NCBI GenBank assembly: GCA_002069975.1
Contig: MWCJ01000028.1
Location: 1 to 35,567, forward strand
Direction: 5' to 3'
Length of the DNA: 35,567 nt
Source of the DNA: Bacteroidetes bacterium ADurb.Bin217
GTDB lineage: Bacteria; Bacteroidota; Bacteroidia; Bacteroidales; UBA1715
Under the pieces are notes generated by a model. It did no database searches. It worked only from the letters and a program-made list of their open reading frames with translations, and had not been told where the DNA came from. Below, piece after piece: positions 3,745 through 35,567 of this stretch (the first letter of the stretch is position 1; the number at the start of each line of letters is the position of its first letter). The translations under genes and the position numbers were made by a program.

Positions 3745-5496
3745 TTATTTTTTTCGAATCTGCAAACAAAGTTCTTCTAATTGAGCCTGCGAAATTTCGG
3801 TAGGACATTCTGCCATAAGGTCTTTTGCAGCATTATTTTTGGGGAACGCTATTACATCACGAATGGAATCAGCTCCCGAAAGTATAGTTACAAATCTATC
3901 AAAACCAAATGCCAATCCACCATGCGGAGGTGCTCCATATGTAAATGCTCCCATCAAAAAGCCAAATTGAGCCTGTGCTTGTTCGGGAGTGAATCCTAAA
4001 AGCGAAAACATTTTTGCTTGTAATTCTGAATTATGTATACGAATTGACCCACCACCAATTTCACTTCCGTTTACCACAAAATCATATGCATTGGCACGAA
4101 CGGCTTGCGGATTTGTATCGAGTAAAGGAATATCTTCGGGTTTAGGCGATGTAAACGGATGATGTTTTGCATATAATCGTTGCGATTCTTCGTCCCATTC
4201 AAATAGAGGAAAATCTACCACCCACAATGGGGCAAATACATCTTTAGGACGGAATCCTAACCGATTACCTAATTCTAATCGTAATTCGCACAATGCATTA
4301 AGAGTTGTTGCTTGATCGCCTGAAATTATTAAAAGTAAGTCGCCTGCGTGTGCTTCACATTCTTGGCACAATTGCTCTAAATCTTGTGATGAATAAAATT
4401 TATCAATCGATGATTTAATCGTACCATCTTCGTTGTATTTAATATACATAAGACCTTTCGCTCCTATTTGAGGTCTTTTAACCCATTCGGTAAGTTCGTC
4501 AATTTCTTTGCGGGTATAGGCAGCACAGTTGGGAGCAACTATAGCTCCTACATATTGAGCATCGTCTATTACTTTAAAATCTTTTCCCTTCATGAGCGTT
4601 GTAAGTTCATAAATAGTCATGCCAAATCGAATATCGGGTTTGTCGCAGCCATAATATTTCATAGCATCGGCATAGGTCATTTGAGGGAAATCGCCTTCGA
4701 AGGTAACTCCTTTGGCTTCGGTAAAAATGAATTTTGCCAACCCTTCGAACATCGCAATGATGTCTTGTTGTTCAACAAACGACATTTCGCAGTCAATCTG
4801 TGTAAACTCGGGCTGTCGGTCGGCACGTAAATCTTCGTCACGAAAACATTTTACAATTTGGAAATATTTGTCAATACCGCCAACCATGAGTAATTGTTTA
4901 AACAACTGTGGCGATTGCGGCAAAGCATAAAATTGCCCTGGCCATACACGTGAAGGCACCACAAAATCGCGGGCTCCTTCGGGAGTTGATCCAATCAATA
5001 CCGGAGTTTCAATTTCTAAAAAACCTTGCGTATCAAGATATTTTCGAATAGCTTGAGCCATTCGATGACGAAGTTCTAAATTAGAACGAATAGGATTACG
5101 TCGAATATCCAAATAGCGATATTTCATACGCATTTCTTCGCCACCATCGGTATCGTCTTCTATTGTAAATGGTGGCAATTGAGCCTTGTTTAAAATAGTA
5201 ATGGTATGAGCAGTAATTTCGATTTCACCAGTAGGATTATGCTTATTTTTACTTTCACGTTCTATTACAATTCCTTGAATTTGAATAACATACTCACGTC
5301 CAAGTTCATTCAATTGTTCTTGCATAAAGGCATTCTGAGAGCCATCTGCAACTATTTGAGTTATACCGTATCTGTCGCGTAAATCAACAAAGGTCATTCC
5401 ACCCAATTTTCTTGTACGTTGAACCCATCCACTAAGGGTTACAGATTTGCCAACATCAGAAATTCGTAATTCGCCGCAAGTATGAGTTCTATACAT
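3745..5496 (-). CDS. aspS: aspartyl-tRNA synthetase
   Basis: 583 residues from ATG at 5496 ([11 protein letters not shown]). The open frame extends to 5565, but the additional residues are not conserved in kind and overlap the promoter region. Domains: OB-fold anticodon-binding domain (about 1-110, [20 protein letters not shown]), class II catalytic core with motif 2 ([18 protein letters not shown], about 218-235), a bacterial GAD-type insertion (about 290-405) and motif 3 ([10 protein letters not shown], about 527-536). It charges tRNA-Asp with aspartate in the cytoplasm. First gene of the aspS-tadA-ompH run. Length and motif order are normal for the bacterial type. Confidence 0.97.
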
Positions 5497-5732: not shown

Positions 5733-5960
5733 AAAAGAAGACTTACATAAATAATGTGAGTCTTTTTTTTTTGAACATAATTCAGCTTCTTAGAGCATCC
5801 CGATGCATATCGGGAGGGTCGCAGGTTCAAGCCCTGCTGGGCCCACCAAAAAGAAGACTTACATAAATAATGTGAGTCTTTTTTTTTGAACATAATTCAG
5901 CTTCTTAGAGCATCCCGATGCATATCGGGAGAGTCGCAGGTTCAAGCCCTGCTGGGCCCA
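5703..5960 (+). repeat. tandem array of tRNA 3'-end copies (116 bp, 115 bp, partial unit)
   Basis: The 27 bases forming the T arm and 3' acceptor strand of the tRNA (5703-5729) recur exactly at 5819-5845 and 5934-5960. The first two units also share CCA, a terminator hairpin and a degenerate tRNA-like 5' half (TTCAGCTTCTTAGAGC, then a 6-bp TCCCGA/TCGGGA stem). The pseudo-copies keep a perfect T arm but their acceptor 5' strand no longer pairs. The two units differ by one T in the poly-T run and by GGGTC versus GAGTC near the junction. The last copy lacks CCA. Confidence 0.85.
5738..5772 (+). terminator. intrinsic terminator after the tRNA
   Basis: AAGACTTACAT (5738-5748) pairs with ATGTGAGTCTT (5754-5764) with one G-T pair, 5-nt loop, followed by a T run. 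The same hairpin is repeated at 5854-5887 as part of the tandem unit. Confidence 0.8.
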
Positions 5961-5969
5961 ATCATTATC

Positions 5970-6005
5970 AAGGACTTACGAAAGCAGAAATCGTAAGTCC
6001 TTTTT
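5970..6005 (+). terminator. second, unrelated intrinsic terminator closing the tRNA array
   Basis: AAGGACTTACGA (5970-5981) and TCGTAAGTCCTT (5991-6002) form a perfect 12-bp stem with a 9-nt loop and a short T run. From here to 6170 (165 bases) I see no gene or further structure. Confidence 0.75.
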
Positions 6006-6145
6006 ATTTGCACATGAGATTGGTATAATAATTGCTCTGCGGACATCCTCTTTTTCAATATGTTAACCTACCATTTTTTGTGATTTTGTGATTTTCTTTG
6101 ATTGCTAAGAAAACAGTCAATAATTTTAAAATATTATAAAATAAA

Positions 6146-6197
6146 TTTGGATTTCATTATATTTATGTTTTATATTTGTTAGTGAATATTCACTAAC
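6146..6197 (+). promoter_or_regulatory. promoter and 20-bp palindromic operator of the tetR gene
   Basis: TTTG (6146-6149), 21-base spacer, TATATTTG (6171-6178). GTTAGTGAATATTCACTAAC (6178-6197) is a perfect 20-bp palindrome that begins at the last base of the -7 box and covers the expected transcription start. A TetR dimer bound there would block its own promoter. A close copy lies at the start of the TolC-like gene (7545-7564). Confidence 0.75.
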
Positions 6198-6211
6198 TTA
6201 TTTTTTGTAAA

Positions 6212-6799
6212 ATGAATTCAGAAATAACAGAACGCCAAAAGGAGATTATAAATGTATCGCTTGAGATAATTGCAGAAAGTGGAATCCAATCTCTAACAAT
6301 AAAAAATCTTGCAAAAAAAATTGGGTTTGCAGAATCAGCTATCTATCGTCATTACGAAAATAAAATTCAGATTCTTTTGGGAATATTAGAATTTTTCAAA
6401 CAAAATTCAGAGTATTTTTTTACGAGTCAATTAGATTCAAATGAGCCTACTTCAGCTAAAATTGAGCATTTGTTTCTTAATTATTTCAAGAAGTTTACTG
6501 CAACACCATCACTTGTCGCAGTAATTTTTTCTGAAGAAATTTTTCGTAACGAGGTAGAACTTACCGATAAAGTTAAAGAAATAATGAATAAAAATATTTC
6601 GAGCCTTACCACTATAATAGAAACGGGGCAACGTAATGGCGAAATTAGAGCTGATATTGATGCTTCACATTTAGCATTGATGATTATGGGATCGTTGAGA
6701 ATGTTTGTGAAGCAATGGCACATGTCTCATTACGAGTTTAATTTAATAGAAAGAGGTTCGGAGTTTATAACTTCTATAAAAATTTTAATTAATAAGTAA
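6212..6799 (+). CDS. TetR/AcrR family transcriptional regulator
   Basis: 195 residues, the usual size. The N-terminal helix-turn-helix (about residues 8-55) reads SLTIKNLAKKIGFAESAIYR followed by HYENKIQIL, a clear TetR_N signature. The C-terminal part (about 75-195) is the helical ligand-binding and dimerisation domain, whose ligand cannot be read. It is first in a cluster ending in an RND pump and is preceded by a perfect palindromic operator, with a second operator copy in front of the pump genes. The likely role is a drug-responsive repressor of itself and of the efflux operon. The cupin gene starts 11 bases downstream. Confidence 0.9.
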   Translation: MNSEITERQKEIINVSLEIIAESGIQSLTIKNLAKKIGFAESAIYRHYENKIQILLGILEFFKQNSEYFFTSQLDSNEPTSAKIEHLFLNYFKKFTATPSLVAVIFSEEIFRNEVELTDKVKEIMNKNISSLTTIIETGQRNGEIRADIDASHLALMIMGSLRMFVKQWHMSHYEFNLIERGSEFITSIKILINK

Positions 6800-6810
6800 A
6801 ACCTAAAATT

Positions 6811-7149
6811 ATGAAAATTGCTATTGTTAAAGAAACACCCATTGTGGAAACGCCACACAAACTGGATGTTCGCAAATTGTATGATAATGATACTGCTCAA
6901 GCAATGCACATTACCTTGCAGCCAGGCGAAGCTCTCAAGCCTCACATTACTCCAGTAGATGTATTCTTTTATATTTTAGAAGGAGCTCCCGAAGTGTTGG
7001 TTGGTGATGAGAAAATTCAGGTGCATGCCGATAGTTTGGTCGAAAGTCCTAAGAATATTGTTCACTGCTTATACAACAATTCAACTACAGTTGCTAGAAT
7101 TTTAGTTGTAAAAGCTCCAAGACCTACTACTCAAAACAAACTATTGTAA
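6811..7149 (+). CDS. small cupin-domain protein
   Basis: 112 residues. The segment from LQPGEALKPHITPVDVFFYI through LEGAPEVLVGDEKIQVHADS to SPKNIVHCLYNNS follows the two conserved cupin motifs of a single-domain beta-barrel. The first motif keeps only one clear His (KPHITP) and the second has VHCL, so metal binding is possible but reduced. No signal peptide. It is probably cytoplasmic. It lies between the TetR gene and the DsrE-family gene with gaps of 11 and 20 bases, so all three should share a message. Function is unknown; a small-molecule or sulfur-related role next to DsrE is a guess. Confidence 0.75.
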   Translation: MKIAIVKETPIVETPHKLDVRKLYDNDTAQAMHITLQPGEALKPHITPVDVFFYILEGAPEVLVGDEKIQVHADSLVESPKNIVHCLYNNSTTVARILVVKAPRPTTQNKLL

Positions 7150-7169
7150 TTTTAATTAATACATAGAAT

Positions 7170-7489
7170 ATGAAAATTGGAGTTATTATTGAAACTAAAG
7201 GTTGGAGAAAGCCTGGAACGCATTCAGATTTGCAGGTACTGCGAAAAAGAAGCAGAATGAAGTAAAAGTTTTTCTTATAGGAGAAGCTGTTGAATGTGAA
7301 GGTTTAACTGATTCTACATTTAATGTTGACGAACTATTGAAAAAATTTGTAAATGAAGGTGGTGAGTTGCTAGTTTGTGCAAGTTCATTAAAATCAAGAA
7401 ATATGAGTGGTTCTCAAACACACCCTATTTCGAGCATGGTAGAACTTTTGGATTTAGTGATATGGGCTGATAAAACAATTACTTTTTAG
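7170..7489 (+). pseudogene. DsrE-family protein gene with apparent frameshift near codon 11
   Basis: From ATG at 7170 the frame reads MKIGVIIETK, the normal first strand of DsrE-like proteins. The rest of the family (EKAWNAFRFAGTA, then KVFLIGEAVECEGL, GGELLVCASSLKSRNM) continues in another frame from about 7202 to the stop at 7489. One missing base around 7200-7204 would explain it. Translation could start at TTG 7202 to give 95 residues, but the first beta strand would then be lost. No canonical slippery heptamer is present at the junction. The family contains small sulfur-relay and peroxiredoxin-like proteins; a Cys in VCASS could be the active one. A sequencing or assembly error is as likely as a real mutation. 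Confidence 0.7.
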
Positions 7490-7500
7490 TTAATTAACCA

Positions 7501-7533
7501 ATAGCAACGTTCTGTGAACAATGCTATTTTTTT
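7501..7533 (+). terminator. intrinsic terminator between dsrE-like and TolC-like genes
   Basis: ATAGCA (7501-7506) pairs with TGCTAT (7522-7527), with an inner GTTC/GAAC stem around TGT, then a T run to 7533. It separates the regulator unit from the pump unit, so the latter probably has its own promoter, although no good -7 box is visible in the 10 bases before the ATG. Confidence 0.6.
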
Positions 7534-7542
7534 GAAATAAAT

Positions 7543-8868
7543 ATGTTAGTGAATACTCACTCTCGAAAATCATTACTATTGTTATTTTTTTCAATAGTAT
7601 TTCATATAACTGTAAATGCCCAAACATGGACTTTACAGCAGTGTATCGACACAGCACAAGTGCATAATAAAAGCCTTCAGATAAGTCGGAATAATATGGC
7701 TATTGGCGAACAAAAGCAAAAAGAAGCGACATCAAATTTATTGCCTAAAGTTAATATTGTGGGCGATTACAAGTATTTTACCGATTTGCCGTATCAGCTT
7801 ATGCCAATGTCTACCTTTAATCCAACAGCACCCGAGTGGCAGTTTAGAGAAGCTCAATTTGGTGTGCCTCATAATATGAGTGCTACAATTCAGGTGGCTC
7901 TCCCGCTCTACAATCCTCAGATATATGGCGGTATCAGAACATCTAAAATTGCTGCTGAGATTTCCGAATTGCAATACCAAAAATCAGAAGAACAGGTATA
8001 TTTTGAGATTTCAAATTTGTATTACAACGCTCAAATTATAAATCATCAGTTGGAATATATTGATAACAATATAGAAAATACCGCTAAACTCTTGGCAAAT
8101 TTACAACTCTTGCATCAACAATTAATGGTTAAGCGAACCGATGTGCAGAAAGTAGAACTTCAACTTGAATTACTAAAGACACAGAGAGATTTGGCTGCGA
8201 ATAATGCCGAACAGGTAATGAATGCTTTGAAATTATCGATGGGACTGCCATCTTCTATTACTATTTTAATAGACAACAATATTTTATTTGATACTACCAC
8301 CGAATATACTTCGGCAACAACGATTGATTTGCAGCTTATCGGTTCGCAAAATCGCCTTTTGAATAGCGAATTGACAACCTTGAAACAATCGAGACTGCCA
8401 ACGGTTTCATTGTATGGAAGCTACGGGCAAACAGGATTTGGTTACGATAAGCAACCAAATGACTTTTTGAAATTTTTTCCAACAAGTTTTGTGGGCTTGC
8501 AATTATCTTATCCACTTTTTAACGGAACGGTAACCTACCATAAAATTAATCAGAAGAAGATAGAAATAGAGAATAACCAATTACAGATAAGCTTGATAAC
8601 AGATCAGAATAACATACTAATAGAAAATGCTAGCCGTCGTAGAACGGTAACGCAAAAAACAATTGCTAATTCAATGTTACAAATAGAACTAGCTAAAAAT
8701 ATATACGAACAAACACTTTTGCAGCAAAAACTCGGAACCGCAAATCTAAGCGATGTTCTATTGGCAGATAATACTTTGCGAGAATCACAACAAAATAACC
8801 TGTCGGCAATTATAGAATTTATGAAAGCTGATTTGGAATTGAAAAAAATAACGGGAAATATAAAATAA
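7543..8868 (+). CDS. TolC-family outer-membrane efflux protein
   Basis: 441 residues with signal peptide (residues 1-26, core SLLLLFFSIVFHITVNAQ). The mature protein starts with WTLQQCIDTAQVHNKSLQIS, the usual first repeat of TolC-like proteins, and shows the long helical stretches of two internal repeats (for example LLHQQLMVKRTDVQKVELQL and the later AKNIYEQTLLQQKLGTANLS). Trimeric members form the outer-membrane duct for tripartite pumps. The next genes encode DUF2798, adaptor and RND permease at short spacing, so this is the duct of that pump. The ATG lies inside a TetR operator copy; an in-frame GTG at 7549 is a possible alternative start. Confidence 0.92.
   Translation: MLVNTHSRKSLLLLFFSIVFHITVNAQTWTLQQCIDTAQVHNKSLQISRNNMAIGEQKQKEATSNLLPKVNIVGDYKYFTDLPYQLMPMSTFNPTAPEWQFREAQFGVPHNMSATIQVALPLYNPQIYGGIRTSKIAAEISELQYQKSEEQVYFEISNLYYNAQIINHQLEYIDNNIENTAKLLANLQLLHQQLMVKRTDVQKVELQLELLKTQRDLAANNAEQVMNALKLSMGLPSSITILIDNNILFDTTTEYTSATTIDLQLIGSQNRLLNSELTTLKQSRLPTVSLYGSYGQTGFGYDKQPNDFLKFFPTSFVGLQLSYPLFNGTVTYHKINQKKIEIENNQLQISLITDQNNILIENASRRRTVTQKTIANSMLQIELAKNIYEQTLLQQKLGTANLSDVLLADNTLRESQQNNLSAIIEFMKADLELKKITGNIK
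7545..7564 (+). promoter_or_regulatory. second TetR operator, overlapping the start codon of the TolC-like gene
   Basis: GTTAGTGAATACTCACTCTC matches the palindrome at 6178-6197 in 17 of 20 positions. The left half is perfect. It begins at the third base of the ATG (7543-7545), so repressor bound here would lie over the first codons of the efflux operon. Confidence 0.65.
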
Positions 8869-33764: not shown

Positions 33765-34160
33765 ATGGCAAAAATAAACGAAACCTCATCATTTTTGACA
33801 AACATGATAACTGCGGGAACCAGCATAACCGGAGATATTTCATGTAATAGCGATATTCGCATTGAAGGTAGCCTTAAAGGAAATTTAGTAGCTAAAGGTA
33901 AATTGGTGATAGGTAGTACCGGCGAAATTAAAGGTGAAGTTTCGTGCCAAAATTGTGATATTGAAGGCATTCTCGATGGAAAAATTACTATTCAAGAATT
34001 ACTTTCGTTTAAATCAACCGCAAAAGTTACCGGCGATATAATTACGAATAAACTTGCTATAGAACCCGGAGCAATATTTAGCGGCACTTGCACTATGAAA
34101 AACGATACATTTGTTGCCGATCCTGCAAAAAAAATCGAAATAATTGAAAAAAAATCCTAA
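33765..34160 (+). CDS. bactofilin (polymer-forming cytoskeletal protein)
   Basis: 131 residues from ATG at 33765 (MAKINETSSFLTNMITAGTS); the frame reaches 33732, but the promoter lies there. The core (about 15-115) is the right-handed beta-helix of bactofilins with repeated short strands: ITGDISCNSDIRIEGSLKGN, GKLVIGSTGEIKGEVSCQNC, TAKVTGDIITNKLAIEPGAI. The protein polymerises without nucleotide and organises cell-shape or envelope enzymes at the membrane. The next gene overlaps its end by 17 bases. Confidence 0.92.
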   Translation: MAKINETSSFLTNMITAGTSITGDISCNSDIRIEGSLKGNLVAKGKLVIGSTGEIKGEVSCQNCDIEGILDGKITIQELLSFKSTAKVTGDIITNKLAIEPGAIFSGTCTMKNDTFVADPAKKIEIIEKKS

Positions 34161-34374
34161 CTATAGGAACGCTTTAAAATATTCAAACATAGGATTTCAA
34201 ATGCTTGCCATTATTCTAATTGGCGTATTTGGCGGGCAAGCATTAGATGAATATTTTGACCTTACTAATTCCCTTTGTACTATTATTTGCTCTTTGTTGT
34301 CGGTTTTTGCAGCAATATATGTAGCCATAAAAGATTTTATTCGAATAGGTAAACAGAACCAAGACTTACTGTAA
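34144..34374 (+). CDS. AtpZ/AtpI-family ATP synthase accessory membrane protein, TTG start
   Basis: 76 residues. Two hydrophobic segments (about 20-35, LAIILIGVFGGQAL, and 43-63, LCTIICSLLSVFAAIYVAIK) with the family pattern KYSNIGFQM and GVFGGQALDEYF. The first ATG (in QMLAI) would remove the conserved KYSNIGFQ, so the TTG at 34144 is the likely start, giving a 17-base overlap with the bactofilin gene and translational coupling. AtpZ-like proteins help assemble or supply the F1Fo ATP synthase. In this phylum an atp gene often follows; here 34.4-35.6 kb holds repeats and a cassette-like unit instead. Confidence 0.8.
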   Translation: MKKNPNYRNALKYSNIGFQMLAIILIGVFGGQALDEYFDLTNSLCTIICSLLSVFAAIYVAIKDFIRIGKQNQDLL

Positions 34375-34448
34375 GAATAAAAACGCTAAATAATTCTGAA
34401 TTCAAGATGATATAAGAAAAAAAATCGTAAAATATAATTATTGAAAAT

Positions 34449-34610
34449 AGCCTCAGCGAGGCGACAGTAGTATACATCATATACATTCAATTGTAATATC
34501 GCTCCTACGGAGCTTTTGAATTTTTCTATTGCACTCGCACTACCATACTATAGCTCCTACGGAGCTTTATTCCAAATGCTGTTTAATGAATTATTGGTGC
34601 ATATATGGGC
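34449..34610. repeat. direct repeat, copy 1 (at least 162 bp), with hairpin modules
   Basis: Identical to 35406-35567 at an offset of 957 bases. It contains GCCTCAGCGAGGC (34450-34462) and two GCTCCTACGGAGC (34501-34513 and 34553-34565), each a 5-bp stem with a 3-nt loop, and ends in GGTGCATATATGGGC. Copy 2 stops only because the window stops. Confidence 0.92.
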
Positions 34611-35325
34611 ATTAGTGGCAAGTGTAAAAAAAGACAAAAACTATGAAAACAAATTCAGTATTGAAAGAAAAAACATTGACTTTAAATGGATCAGCTTTAG
34701 GACTTGGTATGCTGTTTTCATTAATTGGATTATTGTCAATTATGGTCGGATATGGAATTCAAACAATAAGTATTTTTCTTTCGGGATTATTATTCCTTTT
34801 GATTGGTTTATTTGGAATGATCTCGATTGAATGTTTTGAATTAGACAGTCATAAAAGAACAATAAGATTATTTAAAGAATATTTTATTTTTAAACCTGGC
34901 AAATCGTTTCATTTGGATAACTTTAATACAATAAAAATTATTTTTGAAATTAGTGTTCCAAAACAAAACAAAACAAACACCACATTGACAGCTGCATCAG
35001 CAACATGGAATACGACTCAATTTAAATCCTTCGATATTTATTTGGTTGGGAATGAAAACGAAATTAAAATTAAACATTTTGTTGATGCTAAGAAAGCAAA
35101 TGAATTTTTAAAGAAATTATCAAGTTTAACAGGTCTTCCAATTGAAGAACCTATTAGAAAAATTAAATAACTAAAAAGGAAATAAAAAATAACACCTGAC
35201 ACTAACCGCACCTATTAAGAATAGCGGGTTTGCAGTTATTTCGGCGGTCTTTTTCTCCCGTCGTTTTGGATAATTCGTAACCCAAGGCGGTGCCATTGGG
35301 CTGATTTACACATGGTGTTCAGCCA
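34596..35325. mobile_element. candidate gene-cassette unit: inverted boundaries, one ORF, hairpin-rich tail
   Basis: Left boundary: GGTGC (34596-34600) and GCATTAGTGGCAAGTG (34609-34624), 19 bases before the ATG. Right boundary: CACCTGACACTAACCGCACC (35193-35212), 22 bases after the stop. The right boundary in reverse complement is GGTGCGGTTAGTGTCAGGTG, matching the left one outside an 8-base insertion. The tail 35206-35325 carries hairpins CTATT/AATAG, CCCAAGGC/GCC-TTGGG (35281-35300) and GGCTGA/TCAGCC (35299-35304, 35319-35324). No recombinase is in the window. Confidence 0.5.
34643..35170 (+). CDS. small membrane protein of unknown function (cassette ORF)
   Basis: 175 residues. Two close hydrophobic segments (about 18-40, LGLGMLFSLIGLLSIMVGYG, and 42-63, ISIFLSGLLFLLIGLFGMIS) form a hairpin in the membrane. 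A soluble part (about 65-175) follows with alternating strands and a C-terminal helix (VDAKKANEFLKKLSSLTGLP), the build of PH-like bacterial domains. Family not recognised. Another frame over 34516-34830 is spurious. The gene is alone between inverted boundary sequences and long direct repeats, so it is probably an acquired unit; its cargo role is unknown. Confidence 0.75.
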   Translation: MKTNSVLKEKTLTLNGSALGLGMLFSLIGLLSIMVGYGIQTISIFLSGLLFLLIGLFGMISIECFELDSHKRTIRLFKEYFIFKPGKSFHLDNFNTIKIIFEISVPKQNKTNTTLTAASATWNTTQFKSFDIYLVGNENEIKIKHFVDAKKANEFLKKLSSLTGLPIEEPIRKIK

Positions 35326-35354
35326 AAAAAATGTAAAATATAAATATTGTAAAT

Positions 35355-35367
35355 AGCCTCAGCGAGG
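35355..35367. repeat. extra GCCTCAGCGAGGC hairpin module
   Basis: The same 13-base hairpin as in the long direct repeats, with partly shared flanks (GTAAAATATAAATATTG versus GTAAAATATAATTATTG upstream of copy 1 at 34429). It shows that the module duplicated more than once. Confidence 0.75.
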
Positions 35368-35405
35368 CGGAATTATGGTAGAATTATTTGAAGTATTCAA
35401 AATAA

Positions 35406-35567
35406 AGCCTCAGCGAGGCGACAGTAGTATACATCATATACATTCAATTGTAATATCGCTCCTACGGAGCTTTTGAATTTTTCTATTGCACTCGCACTAC
35501 CATACTATAGCTCCTACGGAGCTTTATTCCAAATGCTGTTTAATGAATTATTGGTGCATATATGGGC
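35406..35567. repeat. direct repeat, copy 2, running off the window
   Basis: Identical to 34449-34610. Hairpins at 35407-35419, 35458-35470 and 35510-35522. The final bases GGTGCATATATGGGC are the left boundary seen before the cassette ORF, so a second unit may start here. Confidence 0.92.

Follow-up and report, generated by a model that had tools for sequence, protein, structure and literature searches.

A probable gene cassette of an integron-like system with non-consensus recombination sites in a Bacteroidota genome

Integrons are among the main routes by which genes, resistance genes included, are captured. A circular integron cassette carries an intact attC, and as integration cuts this site, an inserted cassette begins with sequence that pairs with its own 5' arm. 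Integron attC sites are 57-142 nt long (PMC2727003). Integrons have been listed for Bacteroidota (PMC8618304) and are reported to be rare there; IntegronFinder 2.0 gives Salinibacter only in the phylum, with one integron (PMC9024848), and none of the attC models of PMC8352920 comes from Bacteroidota. The nearest precedent for the locus described here is Polaribacter phage P12002L, which carries CALIN attC sites, one of which was recombined by IntI1 in E. coli (PMC9892861). Archaeal integrons (PMC9668308) are alike in forming arrays in MAGs outside the classical hosts, although they encode an IntI that has the patch III domain, and their insertion points are canonical.

The window analyzed was the whole 35,567-nt stretch of contig MWCJ01000028.1 from Bacteroidetes bacterium ADurb.Bin217. 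Its lone ORF at 34643-35170 (all window features are on the forward strand) is real and encodes 175 residues. As the original prediction had it, the ORF lies between identical repeats, which are exactly 162 nt long (34449-34610 and 35406-35567), and between complementary boundaries: the R'-like box ATTAGTGGCAAGTG at the cassette start (34611-34624) pairs with the R''-like CACCTGACACTAAC of its own 5' arm (35193-35206). The 3' arm of a preceding attC-like site (34570-34610, ending GGTGCATATATGGGC) is identical to 35527-35567, which would be the 3' arm of the window cassette's own site, and these were the only two copies in the part of the genome compared. The contig stops at the presumed crossover point, 35567, short of any continuation of the array. 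On the sequence comparisons given below, we consider it very probable that a single gene cassette of an integron-like system spans 34611-35567.

The ORF product has two N-terminal helices of the membrane-protein type and a β-rich C-terminal domain. It matched no Pfam or NCBIfam family, and its remote homologues place it in a loose group of small membrane proteins. The structure model (pLDDT 82) gave a Foldseek match to 8kei_D (E 4e-4), and the predicted fold resembles EROS/CYBC1. The homologues were considered as carriers of the boundary and rejected, as none has it.

Much of the surrounding sequence is repetitive. A REP-like composite repeat with hairpins GCCTCAGCGAGGC and GCTCCTACGGAGC occupies 34419-34569 and has related copies on contigs C27, C55, C21, C9, C2, and C100 of the same genome; genomic repeat comparison places its right copy at 35325-35526, where it splits the site, and 35325-35523 recurs at other genomic places. 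Within the tail a dispersed hairpin repeat (CCCAAGG..CCATTGGGC..TTCAGCC, 35281-35332) recurs on C21, C113, and C9. The 162-nt flanking repeats, although identical, are thus mostly ordinary dispersed repeats rather than cassette-specific sequence, and the predicted structured tail is present but composite, with unexceptional hairpin folding of the tail as a whole (z -1.4). Only the tail head (35185-35283), single-copy in the genome, is specific to the unit. It had no exact match in genome_contigs and was not found in 14 genomes of the family, about 393 of the order, or 395 of the phylum. Searching these family, order, and phylum genomes for exact or similar copies of the tail, as had been proposed for the phylum, returned chance matches only, mostly inside genes, and an Rfam search gave no match. 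The window unit first looked ordinary owing to these empty exact searches and to the dispersed repeats in its tail and flanks.

The unit could instead be a lone gene of ordinary kind, acquired by an intergenic region rich in repeats, with chance arms and a tail of terminator plus REP-like sequence, and this even if the genome has cassettes at other places. Dispersed repeats make up half of the tail and most of the flanks, the remote homologues of the ORF lack the arms, and the arm match is modest when taken by itself (P of about 0.7-4.7%): an equal match was reached in 22 of 3000 shuffles, which is moderately unusual, and 141 of 3000 random window positions were as good. We nevertheless regard this explanation as quite improbable, given the leader, closure, and site comparisons presented below. 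Short dispersed intergenic palindromes of the REP/BIME kind account for 34419-34569 and 35325-35526 only, and so for palindromes within the 162-nt flanks, but do not explain the closure, leader, or site ends of the unit. The REP-like repeats appear to be secondary inserts, and the window site, being split by them, may now be inactive. On C9 (stretch 4960-5154) a REP-like repeat likewise abuts an attC-like site, C9b, which suggests that such repeats target attC-like sites. On C21 (stretch 5930-6662) a HEPN/MNT-like gene pair is flanked on both sides by the window-tail repeat of 35281-35332.

The flanking identity could also arise by tandem duplication, the contig end looping into a second copy of the 957-bp unit, with the identity produced by repeat recombination rather than insertion. 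The 162-nt identity does include about 40 nt outside the dispersed repeat. However, the genome contains a single TTAGYGGCAAG boundary and none of its contigs continues the unit (copies could be collapsed), and we judge duplication unlikely. The position of the unit after atpZ (34144-34374), where atp genes had been expected, has another explanation: atpB sits on C15, and of the family's four genera, three have atpZ apart from atpB and just one has bactofilin, atpZ, and atpB together. Interruption of an atp operon by the cassette was therefore rejected.

The genome comparison took in about 70% of the genome. When the 60-nt flanks on either side of 665 genes were scored for G+C-weighted complementarity, the window ORF ranked fifth, and the two top-ranked genes were lone ORFs with evident attC-like tails, one of 219 residues on C3 and the other a 429-residue SIR2-like ORF on C11. 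Sequence searches from the C3 and C11 sites led to C9, C37, C8, C24, C46, C42, and C25. Through this flank ranking, the recurrence beside unrelated genes that had been named as support was seen for units of the same anatomy: about 15 attC-like sites (120-180 nt) on more than 10 contigs, each after an unrelated gene (ParDE, MazEF, a PIN-toxin pair, Fic, SIR2-like, and GNAT genes among them). Cassettes with unrelated genes and site sequences lie on C3, C9, C11, C25, C37, C42, C46, C54, C67, and others. Tandem cassettes of unrelated single genes, as in integrons, are found on C37 (ParDE, then Fic, then GNAT, with sites between them), C11 (the SIR2-like ORF, then a second ORF), and C3 (the 219-residue ORF, then another, in two or more units), and MazEF-type pairs sit on C46 and C67, with a PIN-toxin (VapC-like) pair on C54. 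A cassette in this genome starts with (G/A)TTAnnn, contains either a single gene or a small pair of genes, and ends in a long fold-back site that runs from nnnnTAAC to just before the next (G/A)TTA. Nine of 19 cassette or attI-like places lie no farther than 2.5 kb from a contig end; the expected number is 3.5, and the excess fits repeats breaking the assembly, the window's end included.

The motifs CTAACNGCGGGTTTKGC and GTGCGGTTAGYGGCAAG gave 39 and 30 matches; of those inspected, nearly all were within reading frames and none was arranged like a cassette. Three flavobacterial phage loci found with TAACACCGTATATANNNAATTGC were rejected as a coding match. Three flavobacterial phage contigs have small ORFs separated by GTTGCnAACG..TATA motifs, which are possibly short cassette sites.

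The cassettes obey the closure rule of integrons. Beyond the common TTA, cassette starts match their own arms at 71 of 90 positions, other start/arm pairs average 3.2 of 10, and one of 200,000 permutations was as good as the own pairing. As the closure criterion was what led to C3a, C11a, C25, and C42, the independent test is given by C3b (5/10), C11b (7/10), C37a (8/10), and C37b (6/10) only. For the window start, the own arm agrees at 8 of 10 positions beyond TTA and no other cassette's arm at more than 4, which argues against a lone acquired gene with chance arms. Judged from sequence, this complementarity is as expected if the cassettes close into circles.

Two types of fold-back site were distinguished. 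Type 1 sites have the form CACACGCTAAGCCTCATGGCAGTA ... TACTGCCACGAAGGCATAGTGCG, then CGTTA; their covariance model matches 12 places in 2.2 Mb (E down to 2e-31), 5 of which built the model. Compensatory pairs looked for among five type 1 sequences were not seen, and searches of viral, phage, and plasmid sequences found no type 1 site. Type 2 comprises C3a, C11a, C42, C54, a viral contig, and a 462-kb phage (LR756500.1). The type 2 arm sequences differ yet still pair (91.7% of cells), with both-sided, compensatory change in 12 of 18 stem pairs. Covariation scored 0.637 versus 0.208 for shuffled and at most 0.119 for slid alignments, a value that none of 500 shuffles reached, and across the main measures the controls gave 0-1 of 500. 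In type 2, structure rather than sequence is therefore conserved, as in integron sites; the window site is interrupted. The beginning of viral contig IMGVR 3300037861 shares 89% identity over 137 nt with the C3a site, with terminal boxes that differ, and C3a-type sites thus look to be a conserved body with exchangeable ends. In LR756500.1 (399427-405485), an uncultured phage, small ORFs lie between palindromic TAAC..CGTTA sites, one of them type 2.

Both site models fail to match the window, as they would with a lone acquired gene; the interruption of the window site accounts for this. Its putative 5' half (CTAACCGCACCTATTAAGAATAGCGG, 35200-35245) resembles the C3a site, a likeness reached by 2 of 3000 shuffles and 14 of 20,000 random 46-mers of the same genome, which speaks against the lone-gene explanation. 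So does the leader. The window cassette begins TTAGTGGCAAGTGTAAAAAAAGACAAAAAC, and its leader GTGTAAAAAAAGACAAAAAC (34622-34641) is shared only with the first cassettes at two attI-like sites, those on C88 and C75. The leader pattern, written after the three sequences had been aligned and seen, has three occurrences in 2.18 Mb, which are the window, C88, and C75 cassette starts. Of the features that tie the window unit to the cassette system, the leader is the strongest.

At C88, TATAAGGTAGTTA is followed by the cassette leader (TATAAGGTAGTTA/CCAGCAAGCGTAAAAAGACAGAAACGA) upstream of a 486-residue tyrosine recombinase, an arrangement like that of attI next to an integrase gene. Contig C75 terminates in a similar attI-like site, next to a pyruvate oxidoreductase gene, and the attI-like sites at C75 and C11 are without a recombinase. 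A further TATAAGGTAGTTA, then TGCTTCATTCAGG, occurs on C18 (stretch 9659, minus strand) and is a possible attI-like site. The original prediction that no integrase is present therefore holds for the window but not for the genome, which has this candidate recombinase. The enzyme matches the XerA and integron-integrase models, both under cut-off (207 bits for TIGR02249 against a cut-off of 265), and the genome search found no other IntI above cut-off. Compared with IntI4 (2a3v), it is without about 40 residues at the IntI-specific insertion, and it has a 200-residue N-terminal extension with no Pfam match and no PDB sequence match. In this extension (recombinase gene at C88 stretch 6687-8147) there are two similar Trp-rich repeats of about 45 residues, which by eye recall HARP-like domains.

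A viral search with the 486-residue recombinase gave no match; among plasmids, its best relatives come from Chryseobacterium and Persicobacter. These loci were picked by recombinase, not by site, and the recombinase relatives lie 1.4-4 kb from attC-like sites. The Chryseobacterium plasmid has a strong type 2 site (E 1e-11) directly 3' of a RidA gene, 1.4 kb from the recombinase, and the Persicobacter plasmid a strong type 2 site (E 2e-10) ahead of a 478-residue ORF, 3.4 kb from the recombinase. We think it rather likely, from these associations, that the C88 recombinase family moves the cassettes.

The system shares with integrons and CALINs tandem single-gene or toxin-antitoxin-pair cassettes with a fold-back site after each gene, a start complementary to the own 5' arm, typical cargo, and an attI-like site beside a tyrosine recombinase. 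It differs in its boxes, which are (G/A)TTAnnn and nnnTAAC here rather than GTTRRRY and RYYYAAC. Of 15 R' boxes read, C9b (GTTGGGT) alone fits the integron consensus, the window box (ATTAGTG) being among the 14 that fail, and none of 13 R'' boxes fits, which bears out the predicted absence of the usual ends. Moreover, many sites are longer than the 57-142 nt of integron attC (PMC2727003), several attI-like loci are scattered over this genome, and the recombinase lacks the IntI insertion and carries the N-terminal extension. The P12002L CALIN is likewise from a Bacteroidota phage and has small cassettes and sites starting with TTGCTAAC-like arms, but its sites are short, one has a canonical GTTAGGC, and it shows no link to the C88 recombinase or to type 1 or 2 sites.

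The architecture, cargo, and closure are of integron type, and a true integron with a divergent IntI, whose chromosomal arrays or CALINs were overlooked because Bacteroidota attC sites were never modelled, has in its favor the P12002L attC sites, one recombined by IntI1 (PMC9892861). Against it stand the sub-threshold score of the recombinase near the attI-like site, the residues that it lacks relative to IntI4, and the failure of 14 of 15 R' and all 13 R'' boxes; we hold this reading to be doubtful, if conceivable. A system of their own in Bacteroidota and large phages, with an Xer-like recombinase (N-terminal extension, no IntI domain), covarying non-consensus attC-like sites, and several attI-like entry points per genome, is a serious candidate, at slightly under even chances. 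The putative folded recombination sites differ from those of textbook integrons and the enzyme probably does, and what the sequences describe is a system that would work like an integron and falls outside the family as defined by IntI and GTTRRRY/RYYYAAC. The predicted Bacteroidota cassette system unlike classical integrons thus gains support from independent units of the same anatomy, their unrelated genes, and covarying fold-back sites, and the membership of the window unit from the common closure rule, leader, and 5' arm.

In the mechanism that we infer, a free circular cassette would carry a closed attC-like hairpin. A tyrosine recombinase, the best candidate being the C88 enzyme and its relatives, would cut the folded single strand beside TTA and insert the cassette at either an attI-like site (TATAAGGTAGTTA) or a further attC-like site; the resulting arrays could gain and lose genes. 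The window would hold a cassette with a small membrane-protein gene whose site has been split by REP-like repeats, leaving identical repeat-bearing site ends on both sides, where the assembly breaks.

If Bacteroidota and their large phages do have a system of their own, the capture of cassettes as folded single strands would have originated, or persisted, outside the IntI family. As the sites are non-consensus, box-based searches would miss such cassettes; the two covariance models and the consensus make a direct survey possible. The finding raises the question of whether IntI is needed for single-strand cassette recombination, and such a system would explain many of the lone genes of unknown function that lie between chromosomal genes.
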